From Bacillota bacterium (GTDB taxonomy: Bacteria; Bacillota; Sulfobacillia; Sulfobacillales; JAIMBI01), in contig JAJZWV010000016.1 of NCBI GenBank assembly GCA_021846505.1, forward strand, positions 1-56,855: a stretch of DNA of 56,855 nucleotides. Reading direction: 5' to 3'. A model generated the notes under the pieces. The model searched no databases. It had not been told where the DNA came from and saw only the letters and a list, made by a program, of their open reading frames with translations. This document shows, piece by piece, positions 38,809-56,183 of this stretch (position 1 is the stretch's first letter; every line of letters starts with the position of its first letter). A program made the position numbers and the translations under genes.

Positions 38809-38832
38809 TGCCCGTCGCCTCCTACTGCACGT

Positions 38833-40796: not shown

Positions 40797-40836
40797 CCCT
40801 GACACCTCGCGCTTTGACTGCATGTTCATCCTAATC

Positions 40837-40842
40837 ATTATA
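40837..40842 (-). promoter_or_regulatory. -10 element (TATAAT) for the acyl-CoA operon
   Basis: A consensus TATAAT on the minus strand lies in an A+T-rich island 41 bases before the regulator start at 40796, in otherwise very G+C-rich sequence. A clear -35 at standard distance is not visible. Confidence 0.5.
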
Positions 40843-40847
40843 CTCAA

Positions 40848-41181
40848 TGGGCCTGCGCGTCATAGTCCAGCGGGCTGCAAGGTTTTCGCGGCCGCCGCCG
40901 GACATTCCCAGGTCCCGCCCGGTAGGCTCTTTTAGGGGAGGCGCCGGCGATTTGTGGGGGCGCCGCCCCCGCCGCGCCGTGGGCGGATTGGATTCGGCGG
41001 CGAGCCTCGGCGCGGTTCCCGGCCTCCAACCCCTTGGAGCCGCAGCCCAATCGCGATACGCTCGAAGAAAGCGGCCGGCCCTCGACCTGCGACAGTCTTT
41101 TTCGCGCCGACGCCACCTGGCCCGTGCCAAGTCGCAGCACGTGCCGCTCAAGATTTATCGCCGCGCCCGCGGCCGGAAGGA
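40848..41181. other. Divergent intergenic region, no gene recognised
   Basis: Frames are open on both strands throughout because of high G+C, but none has motifs. The forward frame ending at 41185 overlaps the MFS start and finishes with a basic segment (RAKSQHVPLKIYRRARGRK) that could be the tail of a lost gene. The region probably carries the MFS promoter. Confidence 0.4.
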
Positions 41182-42426
41182 GTGAGCGCGATTTCCGCAC
41201 ACGAACATGGGCTCCACTCCGGGGATGGGGCGCACACTCACCGATCCGTCCTCCAGATGCAAGCGATTGGGATTGCGTTCAACATCGGCTATCTCATGCT
41301 GGCACTGGCCGTGCCGCTCTATGCCGCCCACCGCCACCTCCCCATTTGGTCGATTGCTCTGCTGACGGCCCTGCCGGGTGTCTTTCTCGTTCTGCAGCGC
41401 ATTTTGAGCGGCCCGTTCACGGCGGTATATGGCGAGGTGCGCATCTTGCGGCTCTCCCTAGTCTTGGCAGTCGGCGCCGGAGTGGTCCCACTGGTGGGAT
41501 ACACCAGCATTGCCGGCCTCATCGGCGCCCAGGTGCTGAGTGGCGCCATGCGCGGCCTCTTTTGGACATCCGCGCAGTCGTACATCACGCGCCTTCCGGG
41601 AGACCCGGCCACGCGGTTGGGTCATTTTACCGGCGGAGCCAACCTAGGAGGCCTGATCGGGATCGTGGCCACCGGCCCGCTGCTCGGCTGGGTAGGCTAC
41701 CGCATGGTGTTCGGGGCGGTCACCCTGCTCCAGGGGGCTGCTTTGCTTCTGACCGTTGGGCTCGCATCGCTGGCCGCTGGCCAAAACGGAGACCGCATTC
41801 TGCCGGCCATTCGGCGCCTGCCCTCGCTGTTTCGCTACTCCACCATCTGGCTCGCGGGCGGCATCGCGATCTTGGCCGCTATTCCCCAGGCGCTGGTGCA
41901 GTCGTTCTATCCGCTCTATCTCCTGCACCTCACCCACTCGGCTGCCGCGGCCAGCTTTCTCACGGCGCTTCGCAATGTGGGAACGATTCTGGGAAGCTTC
42001 TCGGCTGGGCGGCTGCTTCGGTGGACCGGTCTGCGCGCCGGCATGATGCTGGGCGTGGCCGGCATGGCGGCGGGGCTAATCCTGACGGGCGCTGCCTCCG
42101 GGACGTGGCTGGTTGGCGCGGCGCTTCTCGCCACGGGATTTCTGTCAGCACCGGTAGCTGTGCTGTACCTGACCCTGGTTGTGGGCGCCGTGCCGGACAC
42201 CGAGCGCGCGTCCGCCATCGCCCTCGTCAACGTGTTTTGGTCAGTCGCCATGCTGCTGGTGCCCCTGTGCTTTGGGTTGGCCAGCCAGCTGGCCGGCATG
42301 GCGGGGGCTTTCGCGTGGATGGGACTGGCGGCCGTCGCCGCCCTGATTCCCCTGGCGCGCGCAGGGCTGTGGGCGACGGCTGCCGCCGACCGGGCACGCG
42401 CGGCTGCCCCATCCGCCGGGGCGTGA
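41182..42426 (+). CDS. MFS transporter
   Basis: A polytopic protein of about 415 residues with 12 hydrophobic segments. YAAHRHLPIWSIALLTALPG and LVLQRILSGPFTAVYGEVRI correspond to helices 1-3 with the MFS-A loop; GGANLGGLIGIVATGPLLGW is helix 5. It resembles drug/metabolite efflux or YfcJ-like permeases more than sugar-acid importers. The start is uncertain: GTG 41182 touches the GGAAGGAG site, so an ATT codon at 41191 or ATG 41257 may be used instead. It is divergent from the FadR-type regulator, and its cargo may be related to that operon. Confidence 0.75.
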   Translation: MSAISAHEHGLHSGDGAHTHRSVLQMQAIGIAFNIGYLMLALAVPLYAAHRHLPIWSIALLTALPGVFLVLQRILSGPFTAVYGEVRILRLSLVLAVGAGVVPLVGYTSIAGLIGAQVLSGAMRGLFWTSAQSYITRLPGDPATRLGHFTGGANLGGLIGIVATGPLLGWVGYRMVFGAVTLLQGAALLLTVGLASLAAGQNGDRILPAIRRLPSLFRYSTIWLAGGIAILAAIPQALVQSFYPLYLLHLTHSAAAASFLTALRNVGTILGSFSAGRLLRWTGLRAGMMLGVAGMAAGLILTGAASGTWLVGAALLATGFLSAPVAVLYLTLVVGAVPDTERASAIALVNVFWSVAMLLVPLCFGLASQLAGMAGAFAWMGLAAVAALIPLARAGLWATAAADRARAAAPSAGA

Positions 42427-42853: not shown

Positions 42854-43831
42854 CTAAGAGAGCAGCGCGCACACCCGCTCCGGATCCACCGCGTTGCCGG
42901 TCAGCAGCACGGCCGCCGCCGCACCAGGCGGCACGTGGCCTCCCAACAGCGCGCCCACTCCTACAGCCGCCGCCCCTTCGACAACTATCCGATGCTCACG
43001 CAGCAGAAACCGCAGGCCGCCCGCAATCTCCTCTTCAGACACCTCCACCATGTCGTCCACGAGCCGCCTCACCAGGCGGAGCGTGTGCTGGTTGTCTGCA
43101 CCCAGCCCACCCAAGAGGCTGTCGGCCCACGTCGGACCCTCAGTGGCGGCGACAGGGCGGCCGGCTCGGACGCTGGCGGCCATGCTGGGTGCTTGGCGGG
43201 CACCTATCCCCACGATCCGAATGGCGGGCGCCGCCGCCTTAAGCACCAGCGCCACGCCTGCCAAAAGTCCCCCGCCGGAGACGGGCACCAGCACAGTGTC
43301 CACCTCCGGGCAGCGATCCAGCAAATCCAGCCCGGCGGTGCCTTGCCCGGCGATGACATCCGGATGGTCAAACGGGGGCACCACCCACCAGCCTTCCGCC
43401 TGCGCGCGCTCCTCGCAGCGCGAAGCCGCTTCGGCCTGGCTGGCGCCACCGACGTGGACGTCCGCTCCCCATCGCTCCAGCTGGCGAATTTTCACGGGGG
43501 GCACGCCCTCGGGCACAAACACGGCCGCGGGTATACCCAGATCCTGCGCGACATAGGCCACTGCCGCACCGTGGTTGCCAGTCGAAAACGTGGCCACCCC
43601 CGCCAGTGGGCTGCGCGCATGGCGTGCGCGCAGGGCGTTGGCCGCGCCCCTCACCTTGAACGATCCCACGGCACTGGCGTATTCCATCTGCAGGTGCACC
43701 CGCCCACCCCAGCGCTCCGACAGCGGCAGCGACGGCACCACGGGCGGCGCCGCTACCAGGTCCCGAATGCGCCGGCGAGCGGCCCACACATCCTGCGCGG
43801 TGGGCGCTCCGACGCTGGCGGGCCCACTCAC
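42854..43831 (-). CDS. eutB: EutB-like PLP-dependent dehydratase (hydroxyectoine utilisation)
   Basis: The 325-residue fold-type II PLP enzyme of threonine dehydratase type has Lys59 in GSFKVRGAANA, FSTGNHGAAVAYVA, and the PLP-phosphate loop SGGGLLAG. VPPFDHPDVIAGQGTAGLDL and ADSLLGGLGADNQHTLRLV are close to what I recall of EutB proteins, which act on the hydroxylated intermediate of 5-hydroxyectoine breakdown. It is adjacent to EutD (start overlaps its stop, GTGA at 43828-43831) and shares the operon with EutC, which strengthens the call. The alternative is an ordinary serine/threonine dehydratase. Last gene of the operon. Confidence 0.8.
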   Translation of the reverse strand: MSGPASVGAPTAQDVWAARRRIRDLVAAPPVVPSLPLSERWGGRVHLQMEYASAVGSFKVRGAANALRARHARSPLAGVATFSTGNHGAAVAYVAQDLGIPAAVFVPEGVPPVKIRQLERWGADVHVGGASQAEAASRCEERAQAEGWWVVPPFDHPDVIAGQGTAGLDLLDRCPEVDTVLVPVSGGGLLAGVALVLKAAAPAIRIVGIGARQAPSMAASVRAGRPVAATEGPTWADSLLGGLGADNQHTLRLVRRLVDDMVEVSEEEIAGGLRFLLREHRIVVEGAAAVGVGALLGGHVPPGAAAAVLLTGNAVDPERVCALLS

Positions 43832-45027
43832 GCAGACCGCCCGGTGGGAAAGCTGTCTTTCGTCAGCAGATCGCGGGTAAAGGTTGTCAGCACCTCGCAC
43901 CCCGCCTCGGTCACCGCCAGGGTTTCGCTCAGCTCGAGCCCCATCGGCGGCGCCCACATGCCCGCGATCAGGTGAAACGTCATGCCCGGCTGGAGCACCG
44001 TGCGGTCGCCTGCGCGGAGGCTGGCCGTATGCTCGCCCCAGTCGGGGGGATATCCGATGCCCACTGCGTACCCAAGCCGGGACGCCTTTTCGTAGCCTCC
44101 CGCCTGGAGGCGGCGCCGCCAGGCGGCTTCAACCTCCTCGCAGGCGGCGCCGGGCGCGATGGTGGCCAAGGCGGCTTCCACGCCTTCCAGCACCACGTCG
44201 GCCAGGTCCCGGTAGGCGGGCGGGGGTGTGCCCAGGTACAGCGTGCGGGCCAGCGGGGCGTGGTAGCGATGGCTGCAGCCGGCGAGCTCCAAATTCACCA
44301 CATCCCCCACCTCGTAGCAGCGGTCGGTCCAGGTGAGATGGGAAGTGGTGGTCCGCTCCAGCGAAGGCATGAGGGGCACGATGGCGGGGTAGTCGCCGGG
44401 CACATCGGCCGTGCCGCCAATCTCGGCAGCAAAAATTGCGGCCGCCGCGTCGCACTCACGCACCCCTGGCTCGATAACCTCGAAGGCCGTGGCCATGGCG
44501 TGCTGCGCAATGGAAGCCGCCTGGCGCATATAGGCAAGCTCTGCCGGCGACTTGGTCAGGCGCACCCAGTTGACGAGAAGACTGGCATCCAGCAACGTGG
44601 AAGCCGGGAGTGCCCGAAGGAGGGCCAGGTACGCTTGCGCGGTGAAATAGTAGGCGTCCAGCTCGATCCCAATGCGGCTGTGGTCGGCCCCCAACTCGCG
44701 CAGGAGATCCGCCACCGCCTCCATCGGATGATGATCCAGCGATTGAATGAACGATTCCGGATAGCTGCGAATGTGATCGTCAGGCAGCCACGTGGTGAGG
44801 CGAGCGCCACTGGTGTCTTGCGGCCGACCCATCCAAAAGGGAGCGGGCTCGCTTCCCAGCACCACCAGCACTTGCGGCACATAGAATGACCAGCCGTCAT
44901 AACCCGACAGATAGTTCATGTTGGCTGGGTCCGCCACCAGGAGCACCTCTGCCCCGACCCGCTCCATCTCCCCCCGAATTTTGCCCAGCCGCTGTTGGTA
45001 CTCCGCGGCGGGAAACCTGAGTGCCAC
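43828..45027 (-). CDS. doeA: Ectoine hydrolase (EutD/DoeA), M24 creatinase-like fold
   Basis: The 399-residue protein has the family length of DoeA and its hallmark MNYLSGYDGWSFYVPQ, followed by GRPQDTSGARLTTW, SYPESFIQSLDHHPM, GIELDAYYFTAQAYLALL, VNWVRLTKSPAELAYMRQAA, GDYPAIVPLMPS, HLTWTDR and LAGCSHRYHAPLARTLYLG. DoeA opens the ectoine ring to N-acetyl-diaminobutyrate, acting in the cytoplasm. The M24 metal ligands of aminopeptidases are not conserved, as expected for creatinase-like hydrolases. GTG 45027 is preferred to 45126 because GGGGGG lies upstream and the family starts here. Confidence 0.87.
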   Translation of the reverse strand: MALRFPAAEYQQRLGKIRGEMERVGAEVLLVADPANMNYLSGYDGWSFYVPQVLVVLGSEPAPFWMGRPQDTSGARLTTWLPDDHIRSYPESFIQSLDHHPMEAVADLLRELGADHSRIGIELDAYYFTAQAYLALLRALPASTLLDASLLVNWVRLTKSPAELAYMRQAASIAQHAMATAFEVIEPGVRECDAAAAIFAAEIGGTADVPGDYPAIVPLMPSLERTTTSHLTWTDRCYEVGDVVNLELAGCSHRYHAPLARTLYLGTPPPAYRDLADVVLEGVEAALATIAPGAACEEVEAAWRRRLQAGGYEKASRLGYAVGIGYPPDWGEHTASLRAGDRTVLQPGMTFHLIAGMWAPPMGLELSETLAVTEAGCEVLTTFTRDLLTKDSFPTGRSA

Positions 45028-45142
45028 CTCCGGGTCCCCCCTTTCACTTGACTTGGCGTTGACTTGACGCTGAACCGGCGGCACTCGGCGAGTGAGTCTT
45101 CCTTGCCCCGTGGGGCGGCGCCTCACGGCATGGCCTCCCGCT

Positions 45143-45787
45143 TTAGCGCGACGCCTCCACCCGGCGCTCCAGCACTCCGCCGAGCCGCGACAGCGTGAGG
45201 TTGATCACGAGATAGGCTACCGCCGCCATGCCGTACATGATGGCAGGCTGCTCCGTCGCTGAGGTGCCCAAGCGCGCCTGATACATGATGTCCGCCACGC
45301 CCACAAGGTACAGCAGCGTGGTGTTTTTGACCTGCAGCACCAGAAACGTCATCAGCGACGGCAGCATGATCACCCACGCCTGCGGCAAAATGACCCGCCG
45401 GAGCCCCTGCGCGCGCGTCATGCCCAGCGCGTCGGCCGCCTCGCCCTGCCCCTCGGCCACAGCCGCGATCCCGGCGCGAAAAATTTCTACGGCATAGCCA
45501 ATCCCGTAGAGAATCAGCCACAAGAGCCCTGCCGCGAACGGCGACAGGTTGATTTGAAATTGGCTCAGGCCAAAGTAGATGATAAACAGCTGCAGGATGG
45601 GCGGCAGGCCCCGGATCACTTCCACATAGCCCGTGATGATGGCCGCCAGCAGCTTGCCCCCGTAAAGCTTGCCGATGGCGGCCAGCACGCCCACCACGAC
45701 CGAGATGGCGACGGCAATCGCCGTCATCTCCAGGTCCAGCGCTCCCCCACGAGCCATCACCGCCCAATACAGCGCCACGTAATGCAC
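45143..45787 (-). CDS. ABC permease, polar amino acid family (probable ectoine uptake)
   Basis: The 214-residue protein has five hydrophobic segments and the EAA loop GEAADALGMTRAQGLRRVILPQ of HisM/GlnP-type permeases. YVEVIRGLPPILQLFIIYFG is the usual segment before it. Its GTG overlaps the stop of the ATPase gene (TAGTG), so the two are coupled. A second permease gene lies on the other side of the ATPase, giving the heteromeric channel typical of Ehu systems. Ectoine as cargo is inferred from the operon. Confidence 0.85.
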   Translation of the reverse strand: MHYVALYWAVMARGGALDLEMTAIAVAISVVVGVLAAIGKLYGGKLLAAIITGYVEVIRGLPPILQLFIIYFGLSQFQINLSPFAAGLLWLILYGIGYAVEIFRAGIAAVAEGQGEAADALGMTRAQGLRRVILPQAWVIMLPSLMTFLVLQVKNTTLLYLVGVADIMYQARLGTSATEQPAIMYGMAAVAYLVINLTLSRLGGVLERRVEASR

Positions 45788-46599
45788 TAGGGATGGTCAC
45801 CTCCCAGTGACACGGGTGCGAGCGGCGAACCCTCTGCTGCGAGAGGTTTCAAGACCCGGTTCAAGAATGTGCGGGCGCGGTCGGTCTGTGGGTGCTCCAG
45901 CACCTCGCGCGCCGGCCCCTGCTCCACGAGGCGGCCATCCGCCATCACCACCACGGTGTTGGCCACCTCTTTGGCAAACATCATCTCGTGGGTCACCAGA
46001 ATGAGGGTCATCCCTTGGCCAGCCAGCCGGCGGATCGCCTCCAGGACCTCGCCCACCATTTCGGGATCCAGCATGGACGTGGGCTCGTCAAACAGCATCA
46101 CCTCCGGGTCCATGGCCAGGGCGCGGCAAATGGCCACCCGCTGCTGCTCGCCGCCCGAGAGCCGCCGTGGGTAGGCGTTGGCTCGCTCGGCCAGCCCGAC
46201 CGCCGTCAAGAGAGCCATCGCCTTATCCTGCGCTTCCGCCCGCGGCATGCGCTTAGCTTCCATGGGTCCCAGCATGACGTTGCCCAGCGCGGTGAGGTGC
46301 GGAAACAAGTTAAACGTCTGAAACGCCATCCCCACGTGGGTGCGAATCTCGCGCAGCACCGCCTTGCTGGGCGGCGCCGCGCCGCCCACCAGCTCGCGGC
46401 CCAGCACGCGAATGCGTCCCTCGTCAAACGGATGGAGGTAGTTGATGCATCGGATGAAGGTGCTTTTGCCAGCGCCGCTGGGCCCAATGATGGCCACCAC
46501 CTCGCTGCGCTTGACCTGCAGCGAAATGTCCTCGAACACGGTGCGCGGCCCAAAGCGCTTGGTCAAGTGCTGAATGTCAACTGCGACGTCGCTGGACAT
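45787..46599 (-). CDS. ABC ATPase, polar amino acid family (probable ectoine uptake)
   Basis: The 270-residue ATPase has Walker A GPSGAGKS (39-46), Q-loop in VGMAFQTFNLFPHLTAL, signature RLSGGEQQRVAICRALAM, Walker B VMLFDEPTSMLDPEM and the switch His in LVTHEMMFA. It is of the GlnQ/HisP type that serves polar amino acids and compatible solutes, including EhuA. The start overlaps the upstream permease by 23 bases, and its stop overlaps the downstream permease start. SGGEQQRVAI differs slightly from the usual QQRVAIARA only in ICRALA. Confidence 0.9.
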   Translation of the reverse strand: MSSDVAVDIQHLTKRFGPRTVFEDISLQVKRSEVVAIIGPSGAGKSTFIRCINYLHPFDEGRIRVLGRELVGGAAPPSKAVLREIRTHVGMAFQTFNLFPHLTALGNVMLGPMEAKRMPRAEAQDKAMALLTAVGLAERANAYPRRLSGGEQQRVAICRALAMDPEVMLFDEPTSMLDPEMVGEVLEAIRRLAGQGMTLILVTHEMMFAKEVANTVVVMADGRLVEQGPAREVLEHPQTDRARTFLNRVLKPLAAEGSPLAPVSLGGDHP

Positions 46600-47227
46600 T
46601 AAGTTCCCACCTCGCTAAGATGCGTGAAATCAAGATGTAGAACGCGAAATAGAACAGGCCGGCCAGCACAAACATATCCATCGGCTGAAAGGTTGCTGCC
46701 GACGCTTGGTTCGCCTGAAACATCAAGTCGGCCACGCCAATGGTAAACACCAGGGATGTATCTTTGATGAGGTTGCTGAGCTCGTTGGTGCCCGGCGGCA
46801 GAAAGGCCAAAAGCGCCTGGGGCAGAATTACTCGGCGCATCATCGCGCCATTGGTCATCCCTAAAGCTTGCGCCGCCTCGCGCTGGCCCCGGTCGACCGA
46901 TTGCAGCCCGCTGCGCATATCTTCGCTGTACAGCGCGGCGTAAAACGCCCCCAGGGCCACCACGCCGGCCCAAAAGCCTGGCAGGCGAATCCCCACCTGG
47001 CCCAGGCTGTAGTAGGCCATGAACACCAGCACCAGCACCGGAATCGCTCGAAAAATCTCGATGTACCCCACGGCCAAGCTTCGCAGCACGCGCACCCGGC
47101 CCGTGCGCGCCGTGACCAGCAGCGCCCCCAGCGCCAGCGCCAGCACCAGCGCCGCGCCGGTCACCTCCAGCGACACCACCACACCTGCAAAAAAGTCTGG
47201 CAGATACTGCTGCCAAAGTTGCAGCAT
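46577..47227 (-). CDS. ABC permease, polar amino acid family (probable ectoine uptake)
   Basis: The 216-residue protein has five hydrophobic segments and the EAA loop REAAQALGMTNGAMMRRVIL. YIEIFRAIPVLVLVFMAYYS precedes it as in other members. It lies between the substrate-binding protein gene, with a hairpin between them, and the ATPase, which it overlaps. SD GAGAGGGGGTGAGG precedes the ATG. It forms the second half of the channel with the product of 45143-45787. Cargo is inferred from context. Confidence 0.85.
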   Translation of the reverse strand: MLQLWQQYLPDFFAGVVVSLEVTGAALVLALALGALLVTARTGRVRVLRSLAVGYIEIFRAIPVLVLVFMAYYSLGQVGIRLPGFWAGVVALGAFYAALYSEDMRSGLQSVDRGQREAAQALGMTNGAMMRRVILPQALLAFLPPGTNELSNLIKDTSLVFTIGVADLMFQANQASAATFQPMDMFVLAGLFYFAFYILISRILARWELNVQRRRS

Positions 47228-47317
47228 GCGGCCTCACCCCCTCTCGGTCCGTGCCTTTCACTCCGCCGAACCTGCGCCGCCGCTGACTCCTGCCTCCACC
47301 CTATCAAACCTATCAAA

Positions 47318-47350
47318 GAGGGGGATGTCCGGCTGCGGCGCACCCCCCTC
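47318..47350 (-). terminator. Intercistronic hairpin after the binding-protein gene
   Basis: On the minus strand GAGGGGGGT pairs with ATCCCCCTC (9 bp with one G-T) across a 15-base loop, followed by TTTGAT. It begins 7 bases after the binding-protein stop. Such structures commonly protect or truncate mRNA so that the binding protein is made in excess of the membrane parts. Confidence 0.55.
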
Positions 47351-47356
47351 CCGCGC

Positions 47357-48232
47357 TTAACCGCCCTGATAGGTGTTGGGGGCTGAGCAGATTCCCTTCA
47401 GGAAGACGGGACTCTGCATCCCGTACTTGTTCAGGATTTTCTGCTCCTGGCCGTTGCAGGCAATTTTCTGCAGGTAGGCGTTCAGCTTTTTGAGGAAGCT
47501 CGCACTGTAGGAGCCCTTGGGAAGGCCGTAGTAGCCCCGGAGGCTGGCAATCGGCGGCGCGATGGAACTCGGCATGGCTCCCAGGATCTTGATGTGCAGC
47601 GACGGGTTCTGGTGAATAGCCCACGCCACGTCCGTGTCCGGCTGAAAGTCGGCGGCCACTCGCCCGCTGGACAAGGCCTGGAACGAATCGGCGATGTTGC
47701 TGTACTGCTTCACGGTGGCGCTTGGCACCTTGTTGGCCTCGGTCACCTCCTCAGAGCCGACCACCACCGCAATTCTCTTTCCCGTCATGGCCGAGACGGT
47801 CGCCTTCCGGATCTGCGGCGACTGCGAATTCACCGCCACCACGTCATTGTAGTTCAGCATTGGGCGGCTGTAGCTGATAACCTTCGCCCGCTTGGCCGTG
47901 TAGTAGATGTCAATCGTGATGTCGGCGCGCCGGGCCGCCACCGCCTGGATCGACGCGGAAAACGGCAGCGACGTCACCACGAGGTGCGCGCCCAGCGTCT
48001 TAGCAAACCCCTGCAGGATGTTGACGTCGTACCCCGTCCACGCATGTGTGGTGGGGTTCTGAAAGTCTTCGGGCGCGTACGCCGACTCGGCGATAATCAG
48101 CTTGTGCGTCTGCTGGACGTGCGCCAGCAGGGTGTTGGGTGCCCCGTTTGCGGTGCCGGAGCCACATCCGGCGGCGGCTGTCGCCAACAAGGCGCCGGCC
48201 ATTAGCTGATACCAGATTTTCTTCCAGCTCAT
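47357..48232 (-). CDS. Substrate-binding lipoprotein of the ABC transporter (probable ectoine binding)
   Basis: The 291-residue protein has a lipoprotein signal peptide with a lipobox ending at Cys23 (ATAAAGC), so it is anchored outside the membrane, as in Gram-positive bacteria. The mature part is a type II periplasmic-binding fold of SBP family 3: HKLIIAESAYAPEDF, TGYDVNILQGFAKTLGA, FSASIQAVAARRADITID, YSRPMLNYNDVVAVN, GKRIAVVVGSEEVTEANKVP and YYGLPKGSYSASFLKKL. An extended C-terminus with two Cys (IACNG, GICSA) might form a disulfide. Good SD GGAGGAGGG. EhuB-like role inferred from operon. Confidence 0.85.
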   Translation of the reverse strand: MSWKKIWYQLMAGALLATAAAGCGSGTANGAPNTLLAHVQQTHKLIIAESAYAPEDFQNPTTHAWTGYDVNILQGFAKTLGAHLVVTSLPFSASIQAVAARRADITIDIYYTAKRAKVISYSRPMLNYNDVVAVNSQSPQIRKATVSAMTGKRIAVVVGSEEVTEANKVPSATVKQYSNIADSFQALSSGRVAADFQPDTDVAWAIHQNPSLHIKILGAMPSSIAPPIASLRGYYGLPKGSYSASFLKKLNAYLQKIACNGQEQKILNKYGMQSPVFLKGICSAPNTYQGG

Positions 48233-48328
48233 GATGCCCTCCTCCTTGGTCCTCTTCGCTTGTCTCGGCTGTGCCGCTGCGATGCCTGGATGGAGCCTCG
48301 GCTCCTGCGCGCTGGGTGGGCGCGCGGC

Positions 48329-49792
48329 CTACGCCATCTCGCCCGGCGGCGCGGATTCCGTCAGGTTGAAGCACACGACTTTGGTCTCCGTCATGGACTG
48401 CGCCGCAAAATGCACCCCCTCTCGCCCCAGGCCACTGCCCTTAAAGCCGCCAAAGGGCATCTGATCCACGCGAAAATCACTGCTGTCGTTGATCATCACG
48501 CCGCCCACGCGAAGCCCACGAATGCAGCGAAAGGCGCGGCCCAGGTCGCGGGTGAACACCCCCGCCTGAAGGCCGTAGTCGACCTCGTTGGCACGGGCAA
48601 TGGCCTCGTCCACATCCTGGACGCTATAAACCCCCACCACGGGCCCATACACCTCGTCGCGGCAGACGCGGCTAGCCGCCGGCGCGCCGATCAGCACCGT
48701 GGGGTCGTAGTAAGCGCCGCGCCGCGCTCCGCCCGCCAGTACCTCGGCGCCTTCCGCCACCGCTTCGCGCACCCACTGCTCGACGCGGACCGCCTCGCGC
48801 TCGGCGATGAGCGGCCCCATGTCGGTGTCCTCCGCCAGCTTGCTGCCCACCCGCAGAGCGCGGGTGCGCTCGACCATGCGGGCCACAAACCGGTCCAGCA
48901 CGCGGCGGTGCACAAACACCCGCTGCACGCCGAGGCAGTTCTGGCCGGCATTGCTGAAGGCGCCCGACACGGCAGCGTCTGCGGCCAGATCCAAGTCGGC
49001 GTCGTCGAGGACCAGTACCGGCGAGTTGGCCCCGAGCTCCATGGACAGCTTCTTCAAGCCGGCCTGCCGCGCAATGCGGCGCCCCGTCTCGAGGCCGCCG
49101 GTGAACGACACCAGTCCCACACCGGGATGGCTCACCAGCTGTCCGCCTAGCCGCGAGCCGCTGCCCGTGACGACCGCCAGCACCTCGGGCGGCACGCCAG
49201 CCTCCAGCAGTGTTTCTACCAGCCGGAGAGCGGAGAGGGGGGCCAGGCTGGCGGGCTTCAGCACCACGGCATTGCCTGCGGCCAGAGCTGGCCCCAGCTT
49301 GTGCGCCACCAGGTTCAGGGGATCATTGAACGGCGTAATGGCCGCGACCACGCCGACCGGCACCCGCTCATAAAATCCTGAGCGCTGCTCCGCACCGGGC
49401 CGGCGATCAAATGCAATCGTTTCTCCCGTGATCCGGGCGCTTTCCTCCGAGGACAGGCGCAGCGTGTCGACCGCGCGGCGCACCTCGGCCCGCGCCTCGC
49501 GGATGGTTTTGCTGCTTTCGCAGGCAAGGGTATAGGCAAACGTTTCGCTCCGCGCTTCCACCAGCTCCGCCGCGCGGCGCAGCATCGTGAGCCGCTGGTG
49601 CACCGACAGCTTCTCTGCCACGGCCGCCCCGGCCACGGCCCCCTCGATGGCCGCGGCCATCATCTCGTCAGTGCCGTCAGGCACGCGGCTGATGACAGAG
49701 CCATCTTGGGGATCGCAGACGGGCAGTGTGGCCGCTGGCGCGATCCACCGGCCCCCGACCAGGTTCTGCGCGGTGCTCAGCGCCGTCGCCAT
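48329..49792 (-). CDS. Aldehyde dehydrogenase (DoeC-like, semialdehyde type)
   Basis: The 487-residue NAD(P)-dependent enzyme has ITPFNDPLNLVAHKLGPALAAGN, VLKPASLAPLSALRLVE, FTGGLETGRRIA, catalytic Glu252 (MELGANSP) and catalytic Cys286 (NAGQNCLGVQR), DEVYGPVVGVY and a C-terminal PFGGFKGSGLGREG. It belongs to the succinate-/aspartate-semialdehyde group. In ectoine breakdown DoeC oxidises aspartate semialdehyde to aspartate, which fits this operon. The start at ATG 49792 lies within the end of the homoserine dehydrogenase gene; GGGGGG is 9 bases upstream. Confidence 0.85.
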   Translation of the reverse strand: MATALSTAQNLVGGRWIAPAATLPVCDPQDGSVISRVPDGTDEMMAAAIEGAVAGAAVAEKLSVHQRLTMLRRAAELVEARSETFAYTLACESSKTIREARAEVRRAVDTLRLSSEESARITGETIAFDRRPGAEQRSGFYERVPVGVVAAITPFNDPLNLVAHKLGPALAAGNAVVLKPASLAPLSALRLVETLLEAGVPPEVLAVVTGSGSRLGGQLVSHPGVGLVSFTGGLETGRRIARQAGLKKLSMELGANSPVLVLDDADLDLAADAAVSGAFSNAGQNCLGVQRVFVHRRVLDRFVARMVERTRALRVGSKLAEDTDMGPLIAEREAVRVEQWVREAVAEGAEVLAGGARRGAYYDPTVLIGAPAASRVCRDEVYGPVVGVYSVQDVDEAIARANEVDYGLQAGVFTRDLGRAFRCIRGLRVGGVMINDSSDFRVDQMPFGGFKGSGLGREGVHFAAQSMTETKVVCFNLTESAPPGEMA

Positions 49793-50898
49793 GCGGTCCA
49801 CCCCCCATCCGGCACTCCCCGTCCCGATGGCACGGCCCGAGCGGCGGCCGACCGCGCGGCGGTCCTCTCACCCAGCGGCCGCGCTAGATCCAGCACATCC
49901 CGCAGCAGGGCGTAGCCGGTTTCGCGCCGGCCGGCGCCTGGACCCAGCAGGGTGACGGGCCCCAGCAGCTCCGTCTCGTACGTAATGGCGTTGGTGACCC
50001 CGCCCACGGCCGCCAGAGGATCGGCGGCCGGCAGCACCTCCGGACGCACGGACGCCACATACCCGGCGCCTCGGCGCGCCAGCTGTGCAACCAGGCGCCA
50101 GTGGGCGCCGCCGCTCCGCTCGGCGGCCATCGCCGCCGGGGTCAGGTGGGTAATGCCTTCTCGCGCGATGTCCTCCAGCTCCACCGGCATGTGGAGCACG
50201 TGGCGGGACAAAATCATGAGCTTGTAGGCCGCGTCGAATCCCTCAACGTCTCCCGTGGGATCGGCCTCGGCGTAGCCAGCGGCCTGCGCCTCCGCAAGCG
50301 CCTCCGCATACGGCTGCCCAGCTTCCATCTGGGTCAGCATGTAGTTGGTGGTCCCATTCAGCACGCCCCGCACCCCACAGATCCCCGCACCGGCCAATGC
50401 CTCGCGGGCCAGCCGCAGGGACGGCGTGCCGCTCATCACCGTGCCCTCGATGCCCAGATGCACACCCCGCGCGGCTGCCAGCTCCATCAACTCTGTGTAG
50501 GCGTGCACCAGTGGCCCTTTGTTGGACGTGATCACATGGCACCCGCGGCTGAGGGCGGCGCGGCAGTGCGTGGTCGCGGGCTCGCCGCTGGCAGTGGTCG
50601 GCGTGGCCTCCACCACCACCTCGGCGCCGCTCTCCCGAATCGTGCTGAGGCTGTCCCATCCGTGCACCACTCCGGCCTGACCCCGATAGGCCGCAAGGGT
50701 GCCCTCCGCCGCTAAGGCAGCCTGCATCGCCTGGAGGTCCAGTCCGTCGGCGTGCGCCACGGATCCCTTCACAGGGTCCGAAACCGCCACCACGGTGACG
50801 TCCAGCCCATAGCGCTCCTGCAGCTCGCGGCGCCCACCCCGCAAAATCTCCAGGAACGCTTGTCCGACGCCCCCACACCCAATCAGTGCGAGCTTCAA
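49777..50898 (-). CDS. Homoserine dehydrogenase (no ACT domain)
   Basis: The 373-residue protein has the Rossmann start LALIGCGGVGQAFLEIL, VVVEATPTT, the catalytic-loop SNKGPLVHAYTEL, GIEGTVMSGTPSLRL, the conserved RGVLNGTTNYMLTQM and EADPTGDVEGFDAAYKLMIL. It reduces aspartate semialdehyde to homoserine or the reverse. The regulatory ACT domain of biosynthetic enzymes is absent. TTG 50898 overlaps the M20 stop (TTGA) and has GAGGAGG 7 bases upstream. Its place in an ectoine operon rather than with threonine genes is unusual and suggests use of aspartate semialdehyde produced from ectoine. Confidence 0.88.
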   Translation of the reverse strand: MKLALIGCGGVGQAFLEILRGGRRELQERYGLDVTVVAVSDPVKGSVAHADGLDLQAMQAALAAEGTLAAYRGQAGVVHGWDSLSTIRESGAEVVVEATPTTASGEPATTHCRAALSRGCHVITSNKGPLVHAYTELMELAAARGVHLGIEGTVMSGTPSLRLAREALAGAGICGVRGVLNGTTNYMLTQMEAGQPYAEALAEAQAAGYAEADPTGDVEGFDAAYKLMILSRHVLHMPVELEDIAREGITHLTPAAMAAERSGGAHWRLVAQLARRGAGYVASVRPEVLPAADPLAAVGGVTNAITYETELLGPVTLLGPGAGRRETGYALLRDVLDLARPLGERTAARSAAARAVPSGRGVPDGGWTAWRRR

Positions 50899-52148
50899 CG
50901 TGTGGCCTCCTCTCCGCCGCGGTCGGCAAACGCTCGCGCGGCTTCCGCCAGCAAGGCTGCCCCCATCGGCAGCACGCGCTCATCCATCGCGTAGCCCGGC
51001 GAGTGCAGGGGCCGGAAATCGCCGGGGACCCCACATCCCAGAAACGCGAGCGCCGCGGGCACCCGCTCCGCCAGGTAGGCGAAGTCCTCGCCGCCCATGC
51101 CAAAGGGCTCCCACACGATGTCTCCTGTGGGAAACAGACGCTGAAACGACGCGGCCAGCGCCCGGTTGGCCCGCGGATCGTTTCGCAGGGGCGGCTCGTC
51201 GCGGCGAATGGCCAGGCGGTAGTCACCACCCAGCGCCCGGGCTACCTGCAGCGCCCGGTCCAACTCCTCGGCCAGCGTGGCCCGCACCGCGGGCGAATAA
51301 GCGCGGAGCGTGCCCGTCAACTCCACCTCGTCCGCAATGACATTGGGCGCCTGCCCTCCGGCGATCTGGCCCACCGTCACGGCCGCGGCTTCCAGCGGCG
51401 ACACCCGGCGCGATACGATTTGATGAATCGCGGGCAGGACCGCACCCAACAGCCACAAGGGGTCCACAGCTAAATGCGGGTACCCCGCATGGCCCCCCCG
51501 GCCCATCAGGGTGGCGTGGAACACGTCGCAGCTGGCCATCGCGGAGCCGTCCCACAGGGCCATCGTGCCGAGCGGCGCCTGCGGATTGAGGTGCAGGGCC
51601 CACGCCATCCCCACTTCACTCAGCACGCCCGCCTCCCGCAGGTGATACGCCCCGCTGTGGCCGTCGCCGTCCGCCGCCTCCTCCGCTGGCTGAAAGATGA
51701 GCCGCACGCGGCTCCCCAGCTCTCCCGCCTCGTCCAGTTGGTGGAGAATGTCGGCGGCGCCAAGCAGCATGGCGCAGTGCCCGTCGTGGCCGCAGGCATG
51801 CATGCGCCCGGGCACCGTGGAGGCAAACGCCGCCCCAGGATCTCCCGTGTCCTCCACAACAGGCAGCGCGTCCATGTCTGCGCGCAGGAGCACGACCGGG
51901 CCGCTCGCTTGCCCCAGCTCAGCCACCACGCCTGTCCCAGCGACCCCCGTCTGCACGCGAAATCTGGGCAGCCGGCGAAACTGGGCCGCAATGTAGGCGG
52001 CGGTCTCGTACTCGTGGAACGCCAGCTCGGGATGGGCATGCAGGTGGCGGCGGTGCGCCGTCAGCCGCGCCGCCAGCGCTTCCGCCCGCCGAGCCACCTT
52101 GGCAGACCCCTCCTCCCCCTGCGCAGCCGGCGCCTGCTGGCCGGTCAC
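50895..52148 (-). CDS. M20-family amidohydrolase (probable N-acetyl-diaminobutyrate deacetylase)
   Basis: The 417-residue metallohydrolase of the hippurate hydrolase/aminoacylase group (M20D) has HLHAHPELAFHEYET, LRADMDALPVVEDTG, the metal motif MHACGHDGH (Cys119, His121), FQPAEEAADG, ALHLNPQAPLG and PFGMGGEDFAYL. It removes acyl groups from amino acids in the cytoplasm. After EutD opens ectoine, an acetyl group must be removed; the classical enzyme is the unrelated EutE/DoeB (M14-like), absent here, and M20-type deacetylases are annotated as DoeB2 in some genomes. Start GTG overlaps the previous stop (GTGA). Confidence 0.85.
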   Translation of the reverse strand: MTGQQAPAAQGEEGSAKVARRAEALAARLTAHRRHLHAHPELAFHEYETAAYIAAQFRRLPRFRVQTGVAGTGVVAELGQASGPVVLLRADMDALPVVEDTGDPGAAFASTVPGRMHACGHDGHCAMLLGAADILHQLDEAGELGSRVRLIFQPAEEAADGDGHSGAYHLREAGVLSEVGMAWALHLNPQAPLGTMALWDGSAMASCDVFHATLMGRGGHAGYPHLAVDPLWLLGAVLPAIHQIVSRRVSPLEAAAVTVGQIAGGQAPNVIADEVELTGTLRAYSPAVRATLAEELDRALQVARALGGDYRLAIRRDEPPLRNDPRANRALAASFQRLFPTGDIVWEPFGMGGEDFAYLAERVPAALAFLGCGVPGDFRPLHSPGYAMDERVLPMGAALLAEAARAFADRGGEEATR

Positions 52149-53362
52149 GACAACACCCGTGCCTCGCTGGCCACCGCGTGAAGCGCTCGGCCCAAGTCAT
52201 CCAGGAGATCGCCCACGTGCTCAATGCCCACGGAGTAGCGAATGAGGGCTTCAGGAATGCCCAGCGCCAAGCGCTCCTCGCTGGACAGCTCCACGTGGCT
52301 GGTCGTTCGGGGTGGTCCCGCGACCGTCTCCACGGCACCGAGGTTGGCCGCCAGGTGGGCGTAGCGCAGCCGCGGGAGCAGCGCCCTCACCGCCTGAAAC
52401 CCGCCGCGCACCGAAAACGACACCACGCCGCCAAAGCCACGCATTTGGCGCGCCGCAATGGCGTGGCCCGGGTGGCCCGGCAGTCCTGGGTAGAAAACCT
52501 GATCGATTCCCGGATGGCTCTCCAAGAACTTGGCAATTTCGAGGGCGCTGCTGTTTTGCTGCCGGATTCTCAGATCCAGCGTCTTCATCCCACGCAGGAT
52601 CAGGTAGGCCGCCTCGGGATGCAGGGTCGCCCCGTTGACTTCCCGAAAGTGGAACAGCTGGGCAACCAAGTCGCGGCGGCCGCAAGCCACCCCCCCCAGC
52701 GCGTCAGCGTGGCCACCCAAAAATTTGGTGGCACTGTGGATCACCAAATCGGCCCCCAGGGCGAGCGGCGACTGGTTGATGGGGGTGGCAAAGGTGTTGT
52801 CCACCACGACCAGCGCGCCCTCTGCATGCGCGCGCGCGGCGAGGCGAGCCAAATCCAAAACCTTCAGGGTGGGATTGGTGGGAGATTCCAGATACACCAT
52901 CTGACAGCCCCGGGCAATCTCCGCCTCAATAGCGTCATGGTCAGCCGTGTCCACCAGGGCCACCTCCACCTGAAAGCGCGGCAGAAACTCCATAAACAGC
53001 AGGCTGGTGCCTCCGTACAAATCTTTGATGGACACCACCCGGTCGCCCGGCTTCAGCAGAGCAAACAGCGTGTTGCTGATGGCCGCCATTCCCGTCGCAA
53101 AGCTAGTGGCCGCTTCGGCCCCTTCCAACAGCCGCACCTTTTCCTCAAGCGCCTCGACCGTCGGGTTGGTGTTCCGCCCGTAGATGTGGCCAGGGGTTTT
53201 GCCCAGCGCCACGTCAAACCACGAGTCCACATCGTCGTAGCCAAACGACACGCTGTGAACCACCGGCACCTGGGTGGCTCGCCCCGGCCACGGGCCATCC
53301 TCTCCGCCCCACACCGCCTTGGTGGCCGGACGGGCGTCACTCCAATCCCACTTCTCTCTCAC
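52145..53362 (-). CDS. Cys/Met-metabolism PLP enzyme (gamma-synthase/gamma-lyase family)
   Basis: The 405-residue fold-type I PLP enzyme has YGRNTNPTVEALEEKVRLLE, FATGMAAISNTLFALL, YLESPTNPTLKVLDL, VVDNTFATPINQ and the PLP Lys213 in HSATKFLGGHADALGG. Members carry out gamma-replacement or gamma-elimination on O-acyl-homoserine, cystathionine or methionine. In an ectoine operon it may act on 2,4-diaminobutyrate or homoserine; this is inference. It occupies the place where a diaminobutyrate transaminase (DoeD) would be expected. GTG 53362 follows AGGAGGGCG by 7 bases. Confidence 0.85.
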   Translation of the reverse strand: MREKWDWSDARPATKAVWGGEDGPWPGRATQVPVVHSVSFGYDDVDSWFDVALGKTPGHIYGRNTNPTVEALEEKVRLLEGAEAATSFATGMAAISNTLFALLKPGDRVVSIKDLYGGTSLLFMEFLPRFQVEVALVDTADHDAIEAEIARGCQMVYLESPTNPTLKVLDLARLAARAHAEGALVVVDNTFATPINQSPLALGADLVIHSATKFLGGHADALGGVACGRRDLVAQLFHFREVNGATLHPEAAYLILRGMKTLDLRIRQQNSSALEIAKFLESHPGIDQVFYPGLPGHPGHAIAARQMRGFGGVVSFSVRGGFQAVRALLPRLRYAHLAANLGAVETVAGPPRTTSHVELSSEERLALGIPEALIRYSVGIEHVGDLLDDLGRALHAVASEARVLS

Positions 53363-53419
53363 CTGTCGCCCTCCTTTTGCTGAAACCCGACGCGCTCTTC
53401 GGTGTGGCGGCCACCTCCC

Positions 53420-54400
53420 TTAGGGGCGCAGGTCCATTCCGACACCGGCCTCCCTCGCGGCTTGGCAGGCCAGGCGCGCGATGGCGGTGTCCTGAATTCC
53501 CGTGCCGGTGAGGTCGCAGACCGTGATGGCCTCGGGAGAAGGTCGCCCCATTTGGCGGCCACTGACGATGTCGCCCAGCTCCACGAGGCGCGCCGGGTCC
53601 AACACCCCCGCCGCCACCGCGTGATGGCTGTCGCCCATCTGCACCGCTTGGCCGCGCACATCGCATGCGGCCACGTCGGCCCGCGCCCATACGGCCACGT
53701 CCAACTCCTGCTTGTCCGGCGCATCCGTGCCGATGGCGGTCACGTGGTGCCCCGCACTGAGCCACTCCCCGCGCACCAGCGGGCTCTTCGCAGGTGTCGC
53801 GGTCACGACCACGCCGCTGGTGGCGACAAGCTCCTCCAGACCGGCGCACACATGCGCCGGCACACCGGCTTGCTGCGCCACACGATCGGCAAGTGCGTGG
53901 GCGTGCCCCGCATCCCGCCCCCAGACGGCAACCTGCTGGACCGGCCGAACCGCCAGCACCGCCTGCACTTGGAACCACGCCTGCAGCCCCGTGCCCACGA
54001 CCCCCAGCGTGTCAACGGCGGCCGGCGCCATCCACTTCGCCGCCACCGCACCGGCCGCCGCCGTCCGGACCGTGGTCAGATACCCACCATCCAGCAAGAC
54101 GGCCAGCGGCTCGCCGGTCACCGCACTAAAGAGGACCATGAGGCCGTTGGCGCTGGGCAATCCACGCTGCGCGTTGCTGAAAAATCCCGTGGACATCTTG
54201 ACGGCAAAGCTGTCCCACGCGTAGGCATGAGCCGCCTTCACGTCAATTTCTCCGTTGGCTTCGGGGAAGTCCAGCCGCAGCACCGGCGGCGTCGCCACAC
54301 CGCCGCCGCCCAGCTGCCGAAAGCCCTCCTCCACCGCAGCCACCGCTGCGGGAGAAAACGGCACCAGCCGCCGCAGCTCCGACTCTGTCAGCACCAGCAT
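53420..54400 (-). CDS. eutC: EutC-like reductase (ornithine cyclodeaminase/mu-crystallin family)
   Basis: The 326-residue protein starts LVLTESELRRLVPF and contains TPPVLRLDFPEANGEIDVK, SFAVKMSTGFFSNAQRGLPS, NGLMVLFSAVTGEPLAVLLD, GYLTTVRTAAAGAVAA, the nucleotide loop GVVGTGLQAWFQ and TVCDLTGTGIQDTAIA. The order and wording (IDVK...K-x-S-x-G-F-F...G-L-P-S-x-N-G-L-M-V) match the EutC branch as I recall it, which reduces the imine formed by EutB in hydroxyectoine breakdown. It is the first gene of the operon, read away from the PucR regulator. ATG 54400 is supported by the upstream AAAGGCG. Confidence 0.82.
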   Translation of the reverse strand: MLVLTESELRRLVPFSPAAVAAVEEGFRQLGGGGVATPPVLRLDFPEANGEIDVKAAHAYAWDSFAVKMSTGFFSNAQRGLPSANGLMVLFSAVTGEPLAVLLDGGYLTTVRTAAAGAVAAKWMAPAAVDTLGVVGTGLQAWFQVQAVLAVRPVQQVAVWGRDAGHAHALADRVAQQAGVPAHVCAGLEELVATSGVVVTATPAKSPLVRGEWLSAGHHVTAIGTDAPDKQELDVAVWARADVAACDVRGQAVQMGDSHHAVAAGVLDPARLVELGDIVSGRQMGRPSPEAITVCDLTGTGIQDTAIARLACQAAREAGVGMDLRP

Positions 54401-54638
54401 GCGCCCACGCCTTTCACCCTGGGAGATGGCACAGCATCATCATGGCGGCGAAATGGGCACAAAACATCTCCGAGGGTGTATGAAAAAACCCGGGGGGAAA
54501 CTGGACAGGTTGACGGAACAGTCCGAATCATGAGGCAGGAGGCGGCGGACCGCCCCACGAACTGCCCCCGTAGAAGATTGGGCGCACGCTCACGCCGAAC
54601 GAAGGGGAAGCTGGCCGAAAGACCGAAAGGATGAGGGG
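54401..54638. promoter_or_regulatory. Divergent control region of the ectoine operon and its regulator
   Basis: The region between eutC (leftward) and the PucR-type gene (rightward) must carry both promoters. Visible features are an A+T-rich GTATGAAAAAAC stretch near 54477-54488, a TTGACG at about 54510 in the rightward direction, and GGAC/GTCC arms flanking it (about 54503 and 54522). I cannot assign -10 elements with confidence. The arms are a possible activator site. Confidence 0.35.
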
Positions 54639-56183
54639 ATGAATCTCAGCGTCGCGGAAGTGATGGCGCTGCCTATCTTGGGATCGGCGCGCCTGCTGAC
54701 ACCAGCGCCGGATCACCGGTCCATCCGCTGGGTATCCGTCATTGAGGCACCCGTCGAAGACTTCGTCCGCGAGGACGAGTTGGTGCTGACGACAGCCATG
54801 GGGTGCAAGGATTCCGAGGCGCTGTCCGCGCTCGTATCCGATATTGCCCACGCGGGTGCCGGCGCACTCGGCATCGCGACCGGCTACTACATCGAGGCCA
54901 TCCCGCCGCCCGTCGTAGATCTGGCTGCGGCGCGCCAGCTTCCCCTCATTCAGATTCCGTGGGCCGTGCGCTTTTCGGAAATCAGCCAGGCGGTGTCCGA
55001 TGCGCTGCTGGCCCAGCAGCGGGTCTGGCTGGAAGATGCCAAAGAGCTGCAAGCCGACGTGTGGAGCGTAATTCTGCGCCGCGGGAGCGTCGACGATGTT
55101 CGGCAGATGCTGGAGCGCCGCCTGCAGGCTCGCCTGCGCATCGAGGAGGCGGGCGGAGTGCTGGTGGCGGGAGCGCACCGCCACACCGAGGCGGGCGCGG
55201 CCACGGCGCCGATCCACTCAGCGCTGCGCCTCGAAGGCTACGTGACCGTGTGGCCGGAAAGCCCCCGCGTCGATGCGGCTGCGCAGGCGGAGGCGGCGGC
55301 CAGTGCGATGGCGGTGTGGTATCTGTACCAAGAAGCCGAGCGCCAGCGGCGATTTCAGTCGCGGGACAGCCTGCTCTGGAGCCTTGCCTACGGTGAAGTG
55401 TCCGTGGGCGATGTGCTGGAGCGGCTCACGTTGCTGGGCTACCACCCGGATCGCGAGTATGTCGGGCTGCTGGGCCAAGTGGACACGCTGGGCGACGCCT
55501 CCACCCCTGCTCCGCCCGACCCTGCAGCTATCCGGGCCGTCCACGACTTGGTCGCCGAAGCCGTAGCCCGTGTGTCGCCCGCCACGCTGTACACCCACCG
55601 CCAGGACACGTTTCTGGTATATCTGGAATCGCGAGCGCGGGAGCATGGGCAAGTGGCGCGTCGGTTTCTGGACGCGCTGGACGCGCGGATGAGGGCCCAG
55701 CTGCCTCTGGTTGTGATGTCGTGGGGAGTGGGCGCGGCGGATTCGGAGCCGACCGGGAACCGCTTCCACAATGCCTATCGGCAAGCGCATGAAGCGTTGA
55801 ACATTGGCTACAGCCAATCCGGTCCGGGGCACCGGACGTTTTTCGCCGATGTCCGCCTCTATCAAATGCTGCTGCACCTCTCGCAGGAGCCGGTCGCGCA
55901 GGAGCTGCTGGCGGCAACGCTGCGCCCTCTGCAGGAGTACGATGGCAAGCGCCATGGCGCCCTCGTGCTCACGCTGAGCACATTTGTCCAAACCCGCGGC
56001 CAAATCAGTGAGACCGCCCGGCTGCTCAATTTGCACCGCCAGTCCCTCACTTACCGCCTATCGCAGATTGAGCGGCTGACTGGCCGATCCCTGGTCGACC
56101 CCGACGACTGGTTCCTGTTCTCCTTTGCCCTGCGGATTTTGAAGCACCAGGAAGCCACGGCACACTTGCACTCGGGCCCCTAA
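54639..56183 (+). CDS. PucR-family transcriptional regulator
   Basis: The 514-residue protein has the PucR N-terminal ligand domain (SVAEVMALPILGSARLLTPA, then DELVLTTAMG, then GALGIATGYYIEAIPPPVVD) and a C-terminal helix-turn-helix of the HTH_30 type (LSTFVQTRGQISETARLLNL, then LHRQSLTYRLSQIERLTG). A central GGDEF-like region without catalytic motif links them. Family members activate purine, choline, amino acid or other nitrogen catabolism in response to a metabolite. It is divergent from the ectoine operon and the only regulator there, so it probably activates it. AAAGGATGAGGGG precedes the ATG. Confidence 0.88.
   Translation: MNLSVAEVMALPILGSARLLTPAPDHRSIRWVSVIEAPVEDFVREDELVLTTAMGCKDSEALSALVSDIAHAGAGALGIATGYYIEAIPPPVVDLAAARQLPLIQIPWAVRFSEISQAVSDALLAQQRVWLEDAKELQADVWSVILRRGSVDDVRQMLERRLQARLRIEEAGGVLVAGAHRHTEAGAATAPIHSALRLEGYVTVWPESPRVDAAAQAEAAASAMAVWYLYQEAERQRRFQSRDSLLWSLAYGEVSVGDVLERLTLLGYHPDREYVGLLGQVDTLGDASTPAPPDPAAIRAVHDLVAEAVARVSPATLYTHRQDTFLVYLESRAREHGQVARRFLDALDARMRAQLPLVVMSWGVGAADSEPTGNRFHNAYRQAHEALNIGYSQSGPGHRTFFADVRLYQMLLHLSQEPVAQELLAATLRPLQEYDGKRHGALVLTLSTFVQTRGQISETARLLNLHRQSLTYRLSQIERLTGRSLVDPDDWFLFSFALRILKHQEATAHLHSGP

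Follow-up and report, generated by a model that had tools for sequence, protein, structure and literature searches.

This study concerns a putative ectoine-breakdown operon in the window, by which we mean the whole 56,855-nucleotide stretch of DNA analysed here (contig JAJZWV010000016.1 of assembly GCA_021846505.1, from a Bacillota bacterium of the class Sulfobacillia). Between 54400 and 42854 there are eleven leftward open reading frames (ORFs), behind a single divergent gene for a PucR-family regulator, as the original prediction, made from the letters of the window, had described. They encode EutB-, EutC- and DoeA/EutD-type proteins, a pyridoxal phosphate (PLP)-dependent enzyme of the PRK08249 type, an M20 amidohydrolase, a homoserine dehydrogenase (HSD), an aldehyde dehydrogenase (ALDH) and an ATP-binding cassette (ABC) transporter (Table 1). 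With the GTG at 43831 taken as the eutB start, there is an overlap of 1 to 25 bases at six of the ten gene junctions. This start is the most likely one: its GTGA overlaps the doeA stop codon, and the start listed for the ORF, at 43957, would create a 130-base overlap with doeA and is far upstream of the part matched by the EutB profile (residues 53-361). The true start of DoeA may be the GTG at 45084 or that at 45027. The twelve-gene arrangement is identical in the three other genomes of the genus examined (L009-L011; the same places as L079, L077 and L081) and, because this order recurs in the genus and the PLP-M20-HSD-ALDH block recurs in other members of the class, it is not a product of chance.

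Table 1. Genes and other features of the operon region, in window coordinates, with the evidence behind each name.
Feature	Position	Strand	Evidence
PucR-family regulator, divergent	54639..56183	+	Pfam PucR, GGDEF_2, HTH_30; PucR also in Priestia clusters
16-base block CGGAACAGTSCGAATC, candidate operator or promoter element	54514..54529	.	Alignment and searches
EutC-like cyclodeaminase (OCD)	53420..54400	-	NCBIfam PRK08291, then TIGR02992
PRK08249-type gamma-family PLP enzyme; proposed diaminobutyrate gamma-lyase/hydrolase	52145..53362	-	NF006097, PF01053
M20 amidohydrolase; proposed N-acetyl-diaminobutyrate deacetylase	50895..52148	-	TIGR01891 above cut-off; DoeB2 third-best model
Homoserine dehydrogenase (HSD)	49777..50898	-	PRK06270; alignment to solved HSDs
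Aldehyde dehydrogenase (ALDH); proposed aspartate-semialdehyde oxidation, in the DoeC place	48329..49801	-	PF00171, 523 bits
Family-3 solute-binding protein (SBP_bac_3)	47357..48232	-	PF00497
ABC permease (A)	46577..47227	-	Named by place; kept beside ATPase and solute-binding protein in relatives
ABC ATPase, polar-amino-acid type	45787..46599	-	NCBIfam models only
ABC permease (B)	45143..45787	-	Named by place; kept in relatives
DoeA/EutD-type M24 ectoine hydrolase (predicted)	43828..45126	-	TIGR02993; PDB 6TWJ/6TWK
EutB-type dehydratase (PALP)	42854..43831 (ORF listed to 43957)	-	PRK07476

On the evidence of family assignments, a role of the operon in ectoine metabolism is well supported. 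The top NCBIfam model was PRK07476 EutB for the EutB product (343 bits; cut-off 413), PRK08291 cyclodeaminase (392 bits; cut-off 408) followed by TIGR02992 EutC (344 bits; cut-off 471.65) for the EutC product, and TIGR02993 EutD for the DoeA product (442 bits; cut-off 613). Among PDB sequences, the best match of DoeA was the ectoine hydrolase 6TWJ/6TWK (362 bits, E 3e-107), an Xaa-Pro dipeptidase reaching 80 bits, and Glu280 of DoeA aligned with Glu255 of 6TWK, which we take to be the catalytic glutamate of EutD. The counterparts in Priestia scored 531 bits with the EutD model (cut-off 613) and 501 bits with PRK08291, above the cut-off of 408. As ectoine-family models scored first, assignment of the three products to threonine dehydratases, ornithine cyclodeaminases and Xaa-Pro peptidases, the outcome that would have refuted the original prediction, was ruled out, and the scans agreed with the ectoine-type enzymes and the polar-amino-acid ABC transporter of the original prediction. 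Uptake and degradation of ectoine, and probably also of hydroxyectoine, is therefore the probable function of the operon. EutB and EutC probably serve the hydroxylated compound, by analogy with what is proposed for EutABC in the portion of PMC5924519 available to us; the precise activities of EutABC are given as unknown in PMC8739950. A tblastn comparison of the examined PRK08249 loci gave no EutA match.

The PLP enzyme matched NF006097 (PRK08249) with 670 bits, above the cut-off of 600. Pfam assigned it to PF01053 (Cys_Met_Meta_PP), with a weak Aminotran_1_2 match and no Aminotran_3 match. By sequence, it is a member of the Cys/Met gamma family and lies outside the DoeD family, and its matches to solved gamma-family enzymes fix its fold. 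NCBI names the PRK08249 family only 'cystathionine gamma-synthase family protein'. The PLP lysine (K213) and Y61, R63, Y116, D188 and R375 are kept, the lysine and this Tyr/Arg/Tyr/Asp/Arg set of the superfamily being common to 36 aligned members, and Trp48, Asn64 and Glu241 are among the invariant PRK08249 residues that are absent from 18 aligned relatives. Methionine gamma-lyases carry an active-site cysteine after a YG motif (Cys115/116). All 36 PRK08249 rows have a glycine at this position (Gly118), where the solved sequence that supplied the numbering has an alanine. The methionine gamma-lyase model TIGR01328 scored 370 bits (cut-off 550) and, on this score and Gly118, an identity as methionine gamma-lyase was rejected for the PLP enzyme, although its closest solved relatives are enzymes of that kind.

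Profile scans also agreed with the M20, HSD and PucR assignments. The M20 product matched TIGR01891 above cut-off, its third-best model being DoeB2 (NF038260; 236.7 bits, cut-off 550), an M20 form in the place of DoeB that is already named in NCBIfam. HSD matched PRK06270 above cut-off (384 bits; cut-off 373) and aligned to solved HSDs, with the segments TSNKGP and GFDAAYK in common. None of the best 25 of 45 NCBIfam models for ALDH was above its cut-off. In the known route, as given in the available portion of PMC5924519, DoeD/Atf, of the acetylornithine-aminotransferase family, transaminates 2,4-diaminobutyrate (DABA) to aspartate semialdehyde, which DoeC/Ssd converts to aspartate. EutE/DoeB, DoeD and EnuR had been reported missing from the cluster, and indeed no product scanned with Pfam and NCBIfam was a DoeB/EutE, a class-III aminotransferase or a MocR protein (the Pfam scan covered nine products, PucR and eight from the operon). 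The assembly is 96% complete. Across it, the best score was 272.6 bits (cut-off 401.6) for TIGR00709, the model for diaminobutyrate aminotransferase, and 55 bits (cut-off 402.7), in a 100-residue match containing a TGA, for TIGR02994, the model for EutE/DoeB; by these curated models, the genome has neither enzyme. EnuR, a MocR protein, was not found at the cluster, where PucR is present instead; no search for it was made in the rest of the genome.

Because a gamma-family PLP enzyme adjoins HSD and ALDH where DABA should arise, we propose that it turns DABA into homoserine. DoeA would open the ectoine ring to give N-alpha-acetyl-2,4-diaminobutyrate and the M20 enzyme, in the place of DoeB/EutE, would deacetylate it to DABA; the PRK08249 enzyme would then exchange the gamma-amino group of DABA for water, yielding homoserine and ammonia, and HSD and ALDH would carry homoserine to aspartate semialdehyde and aspartate semialdehyde to aspartate. 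Such a route would bypass the 2-oxoglutarate-dependent transaminase DoeD. EutB and EutC would process the hydroxylated form without EutA, and PucR would have the role held by EnuR elsewhere. We infer the DABA-to-homoserine step by analogy: canavanine gamma-lyase yields homoserine and hydroxyguanidine from canavanine, according to the portions of PMC10018355 and PMC12508155 that were available. That the operon breaks down ectoine via homoserine in this manner is a proposal that we hold with moderate confidence; the gene content, families, gene order and absences from canonical clusters are observations, and each reaction is a prediction from sequence. More tentatively, PRK08249 may be a new L-2,4-diaminobutyrate gamma-lyase/hydrolase that defines a transaminase-free homoserine branch in Bacillota, shortened on enterobacterial plasmids.

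We examined how the genes of this route are distributed. Among 154 genomes of the class, 22 have PRK08249 above cut-off, 17 have DoeA at E<=1e-60 and 15 have both, a co-occurrence with a Fisher p of 9e-14 that ignores kinship between the genomes. In all 14 assessable clusters of these 15 genomes, the PLP, M20, HSD and ALDH genes are contiguous and in that order (in the fifteenth genome, G417, the contig ends at the PLP gene, and in G431 the ALDH matches are in three pieces). PRK08249 was found in just 3 of 398 genomes of a wider draw from the phylum. On the two Priestia plasmids examined, one of them pBMV_1 from P. megaterium ATCC 14581, the same block occurs with PucR, EutB, PdxS, M24 and cyclodeaminase genes. 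An HSD and an aldehyde-oxidising partner accompany PRK08249 again in two more distant genomes: PRK08249, HSD and an aldehyde ferredoxin oxidoreductase stand in a row in a member of Aminicenantes (L021 2540-6643), and PRK08249, HSD and then the start of an ALDH gene, at the contig end, in a member of Neomarinimicrobiota (L023 2580-5533); neither of these short contigs had a eut match.

Two further observations were made in the class. An ectoine synthase is present in six of the 15 cluster-bearing genomes (G416-G419, G429, G431) and in none of the four genomes examined from the window's genus. In two members of the window's family (L082 5091-10600 and L083 1374-6845), PRK08249 is divergent from a gene for a ~530-aa protein (in L082, one with no Pfam match), which is followed by a class-III aminotransferase gene; in L082 the gene after these, third from PRK08249 on the divergent side, is of the arginase family. 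The L082 and L083 genomes have no DoeA at E<=1e-60.

In a plasmid collection, PRK08249 was found at E<=1e-100 in 33 records, all from Klebsiella, Priestia or Pluralibacter (27 from Klebsiella), and DoeA at E<=1e-60 in 356 records, mostly from Rhizobium and Sinorhizobium. A Klebsiella variicola plasmid (L051 4696-16191) carries an ornithine cyclodeaminase-type (OCD) gene, an EutB-like gene, an ATPase gene, EhuADCB, MocR, doeA, doeB and PRK08249. On this plasmid and on that of Pluralibacter, PRK08249 directly follows MocR, doeA and doeB, and the ehu genes are divergent; the original prediction had called for a neighbourhood comparison, and this one shows Ehu, DoeA, DoeB and MocR genes clustered with a gene related to that of the PLP enzyme. 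DoeD and HSD had no match in the 31 kb (K. variicola) and 29 kb (Pluralibacter) examined, and the only DoeC-like match in L051 (33%) lies beyond an insertion sequence (IS) element, ~2.8 kb past the PLP gene. PRK08249 is the last gene of both clusters (Klebsiella, L051 4696-16191; Pluralibacter, L044 8032-15191), and IS elements lie near them (one Klebsiella neighbourhood was viewed). Seven canonical plasmid clusters served as controls (L047, L050 with L053, L096-L100). None of the seven had a PRK08249 or HSD match at E<=1e-5, and five had DoeD; in L098 the DoeD match spans 41 residues, and the L047 stretch ends inside DoeC, before any DoeD. Two further plasmid loci with DoeA-like genes, in which doeB was not annotated, were excluded from the controls, L048 (Haloprofundus, M24 beside gdhB) and L049 (Shinella, M24-M20), and neither has an annotated HSD.

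Several observations weigh against the homoserine route or against its restriction to ectoine. Ammonia is a poor gamma leaving group. Every ectoine model in the window operon scores under its curated cut-off. The solute-binding protein is not EhuB-like (32 bits with that model; cut-off 191), and the ATPase scored 306 bits with TcyN, 284 with GlnQ and 280 with EhuA, its third-best model (cut-off 345), all under cut-off; the transporter type does not decide the ectoine role. A DoeA-like protein of G441, from the same class, scores higher than that of the window (481 bits) with no other eut match nearby by blast; its gene (L093 5302-12469) lies among M20, dihydroorotate-dehydrogenase-type, arginase-family, aminotransferase and carbamoyltransferase genes, unlike ectoine clusters, so a DoeA score alone is no proof of an ectoine role. 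Seven of the 22 PRK08249 carriers of the class are without DoeA at E<=1e-60, and 14 of the 36 rows of the PRK08249 tree are without a eut gene nearby, five of these being on contigs of <9 kb (several of 4 to 9 kb) that give a short view. No alignment column cleanly splits ectoine-context from stand-alone enzymes, three columns doing so weakly. The eut-less rows, which have the same active site, and the DoeA-less carriers mean that the substrate of PRK08249 may be wider or different. In the tree itself the rows with an ectoine context fail to group as a single clade, 7 changes of the context label being required; as the backbone, too, lacks resolution, we claim no single origin.

Other points against it concern the partner enzymes. 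A member of Nitriliruptoraceae (L026) has a row of DoeA, M20, a class-III aminotransferase (23% to DoeD), ALDH and PRK08249, so replacement of the transaminase is not general. In Niallia sp., a short second HSD stands beside the pucR of the cluster, with an HSD in a 440-aa frame elsewhere, an arrangement in favour of the route; however, this short protein has an identity of only 28-32% with the HSDs of the clusters, and ALDH was not found in this locus. The HSDs of L021 and L023 are the only full-length ones found in their genomes, and a biosynthetic role is therefore possible for them. In the window genome (G000), a PF00742 search gave as other HSD signal only two short pieces in different frames (C33 ~79697-80036, L064), where tblastn gave one weak 58-residue match of 32 bits. 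As this leaves no other intact HSD in the genome, the cluster HSD could serve biosynthesis too.

We asked whether other readings would account for the gene set. It is unlikely that the PLP enzyme transaminates DABA and that HSD serves solely to draw off excess aspartate semialdehyde, as homoserine, for threonine and methionine. ALDH in the DoeC place would suit such a scheme, and in the available portion of PMC13188858 the gene at the same position bears the label atf, in the colour class of eutD and ssd (Fig 7 legend); however, a PF01053 enzyme with a weak Aminotran_1_2 match and no Aminotran_3 match is not of the acetylornithine-aminotransferase family to which DoeD belongs (PMC5924519, as above), and a drain role is hard to explain for an HSD that is contiguous with the PLP and M20 genes in each of the 14 assessable clusters of the class.

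It is improbable that the enzyme is instead a true gamma-lyase, converting DABA to 2-oxobutyrate and ammonia to feed isoleucine or propionate metabolism, with HSD and ALDH in a parallel branch. Methionine gamma-lyases, its closest solved relatives, give 2-oxo acids, and the Klebsiella and Pluralibacter clusters hold the PLP enzyme without HSD, the sole DoeC-like match of L051 being the one beyond the IS element. Yet a parallel branch does not fit the fixed PLP-M20-HSD-ALDH order, nor the company of HSD and aldehyde ferredoxin oxidoreductase in L021 and of HSD and ALDH in L023.

Quite improbable, too, is an operon for another amino-acid-like solute, such as canavanine or a gamma-substituted amino acid, with repurposed EutB, EutC and DoeA homologues. 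The under-threshold scores of the ectoine models would agree with it, as would the frequent occurrence of PRK08249 with no eut gene nearby and the arginase-family gene near it in L082. Against this, the nine Pfam-scanned products gave no B3/4 (CtdA-like) match, DoeA and M20 have no evident use on canavanine, and on Klebsiella plasmids PRK08249 shares its cluster with Ehu, MocR, DoeA and DoeB. A canavanine operon was rejected as the leading reading on the presence of DoeA, M20, EutB and EutC and on the Klebsiella context. A B3/4 domain was not found in the seven rhizobial plasmids searched.

Finally, an epimerase in place of EutA in hydroxyectoine breakdown is very improbable: the family includes Ala/Glu racemases, the NF041088 racemase model is among the weaker matches and no EutA match accompanies PRK08249 in the loci examined, but L026 has PRK08249 without a match to EutB or EutC.

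As to regulation, the 16-base block CGGAACAGTSCGAATC, between eutC and pucR, is present in all four genomes of the genus compared, with S being C in the window and G in the three others, and its surroundings differ more; it is a candidate PucR site. A scan for promoters and terminators was uninformative (3 promoter-like sites against 1.1 expected, and 7 terminator-like sites against 6.7 expected). On the downstream side of the operon, past two ORFs (40071-42426), acyl-CoA ligase, enoyl-CoA hydratase and acyl-CoA dehydrogenase genes run leftward at 31434-39999. Elsewhere in the window are sugar-acid-like genes at 20077-28767 (D-threonate-kinase-like, galactonate-type major facilitator superfamily transporter, enolase-superfamily dehydratase) and, at 8848-12252, a gene whose 1134-aa product has a RecB-like nuclease domain of the TM0106 type and, at its C-terminal end, a match to an IGHMBP2-type helicase.

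Ectoine is a widespread compatible solute, and its published breakdown, as far as examined, runs via transamination of DABA. The original prediction had taken the operon for a separate, undescribed form of ectoine breakdown. The enzyme set is non-standard, as it had stated, but not undescribed: PMC13188858 (April 2026) lists, in its available portion, pucR-eutBCD-atf-abgB-thrA-adh clusters of Bacillales for putative ectoine catabolism, carrying PucR without EutE and EnuR, and calls them tentative. All eight of these genes are in the window (pucR, eutB, eutC, eutD, the PLP enzyme, abgB as M20, thrA as HSD and adh as ALDH), and the gene set had thus already been recognised as a putative cluster for ectoine. 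Judging by the order of the genes in Priestia, the atf of PMC13188858 would be PRK08249. In that same portion, thrA is given as leading from aspartate semialdehyde to homoserine, and no homoserine path is offered. The homoserine route was likewise not stated in the open-licence literature searched, seen in part, a weak negative as subscription papers and preprints lay outside it. What would be new relative to print is the DABA-to-homoserine step, if shown, the rest being a variant of a known pathway. If true, the homoserine route would explain the HSD of these clusters, assign an activity to the PRK08249 family, free nitrogen directly as ammonia with no glutamate cycle and correct the published atf label. 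The route can be tested at once, as Priestia megaterium ATCC 14581 carries the cluster on a plasmid.

Compared with the clusters of PMC13188858, as described in its available portion, that of the window belongs to a metagenome-derived Bacillota genus, includes a polar-amino-acid type ABC transporter and forms one catabolic operon behind a divergent PucR. With the proteobacterial eut/doe systems of Sinorhizobium, Halomonas and Ruegeria it shares homologues of DoeA/EutD, EutB and EutC, ALDH, a predicted ABC uptake system and the proposed aspartate endpoint; unlike them, it has no EutE/DoeB, DoeD, EnuR, AsnC or EutA gene and has an additional HSD and gamma-family PLP enzyme. The ehu-MocR-doeA-doeB-PRK08249 clusters of Klebsiella and Pluralibacter likewise join PRK08249 to ectoine-opening enzymes, with EutB/EutC homologues near in K. 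variicola, but have DoeB instead of M20, MocR instead of PucR and no HSD in the stretch examined. The canavanine gamma-lyase pathway (Hauth et al. 2022, as presented in the available portions of citing papers) differs in its substrate, and no CtdA-type gene was among the scanned products of the window; what it would share with the route proposed here is a type of reaction, in which a PLP-dependent enzyme cleaves a gamma-substituted amino acid to give homoserine.

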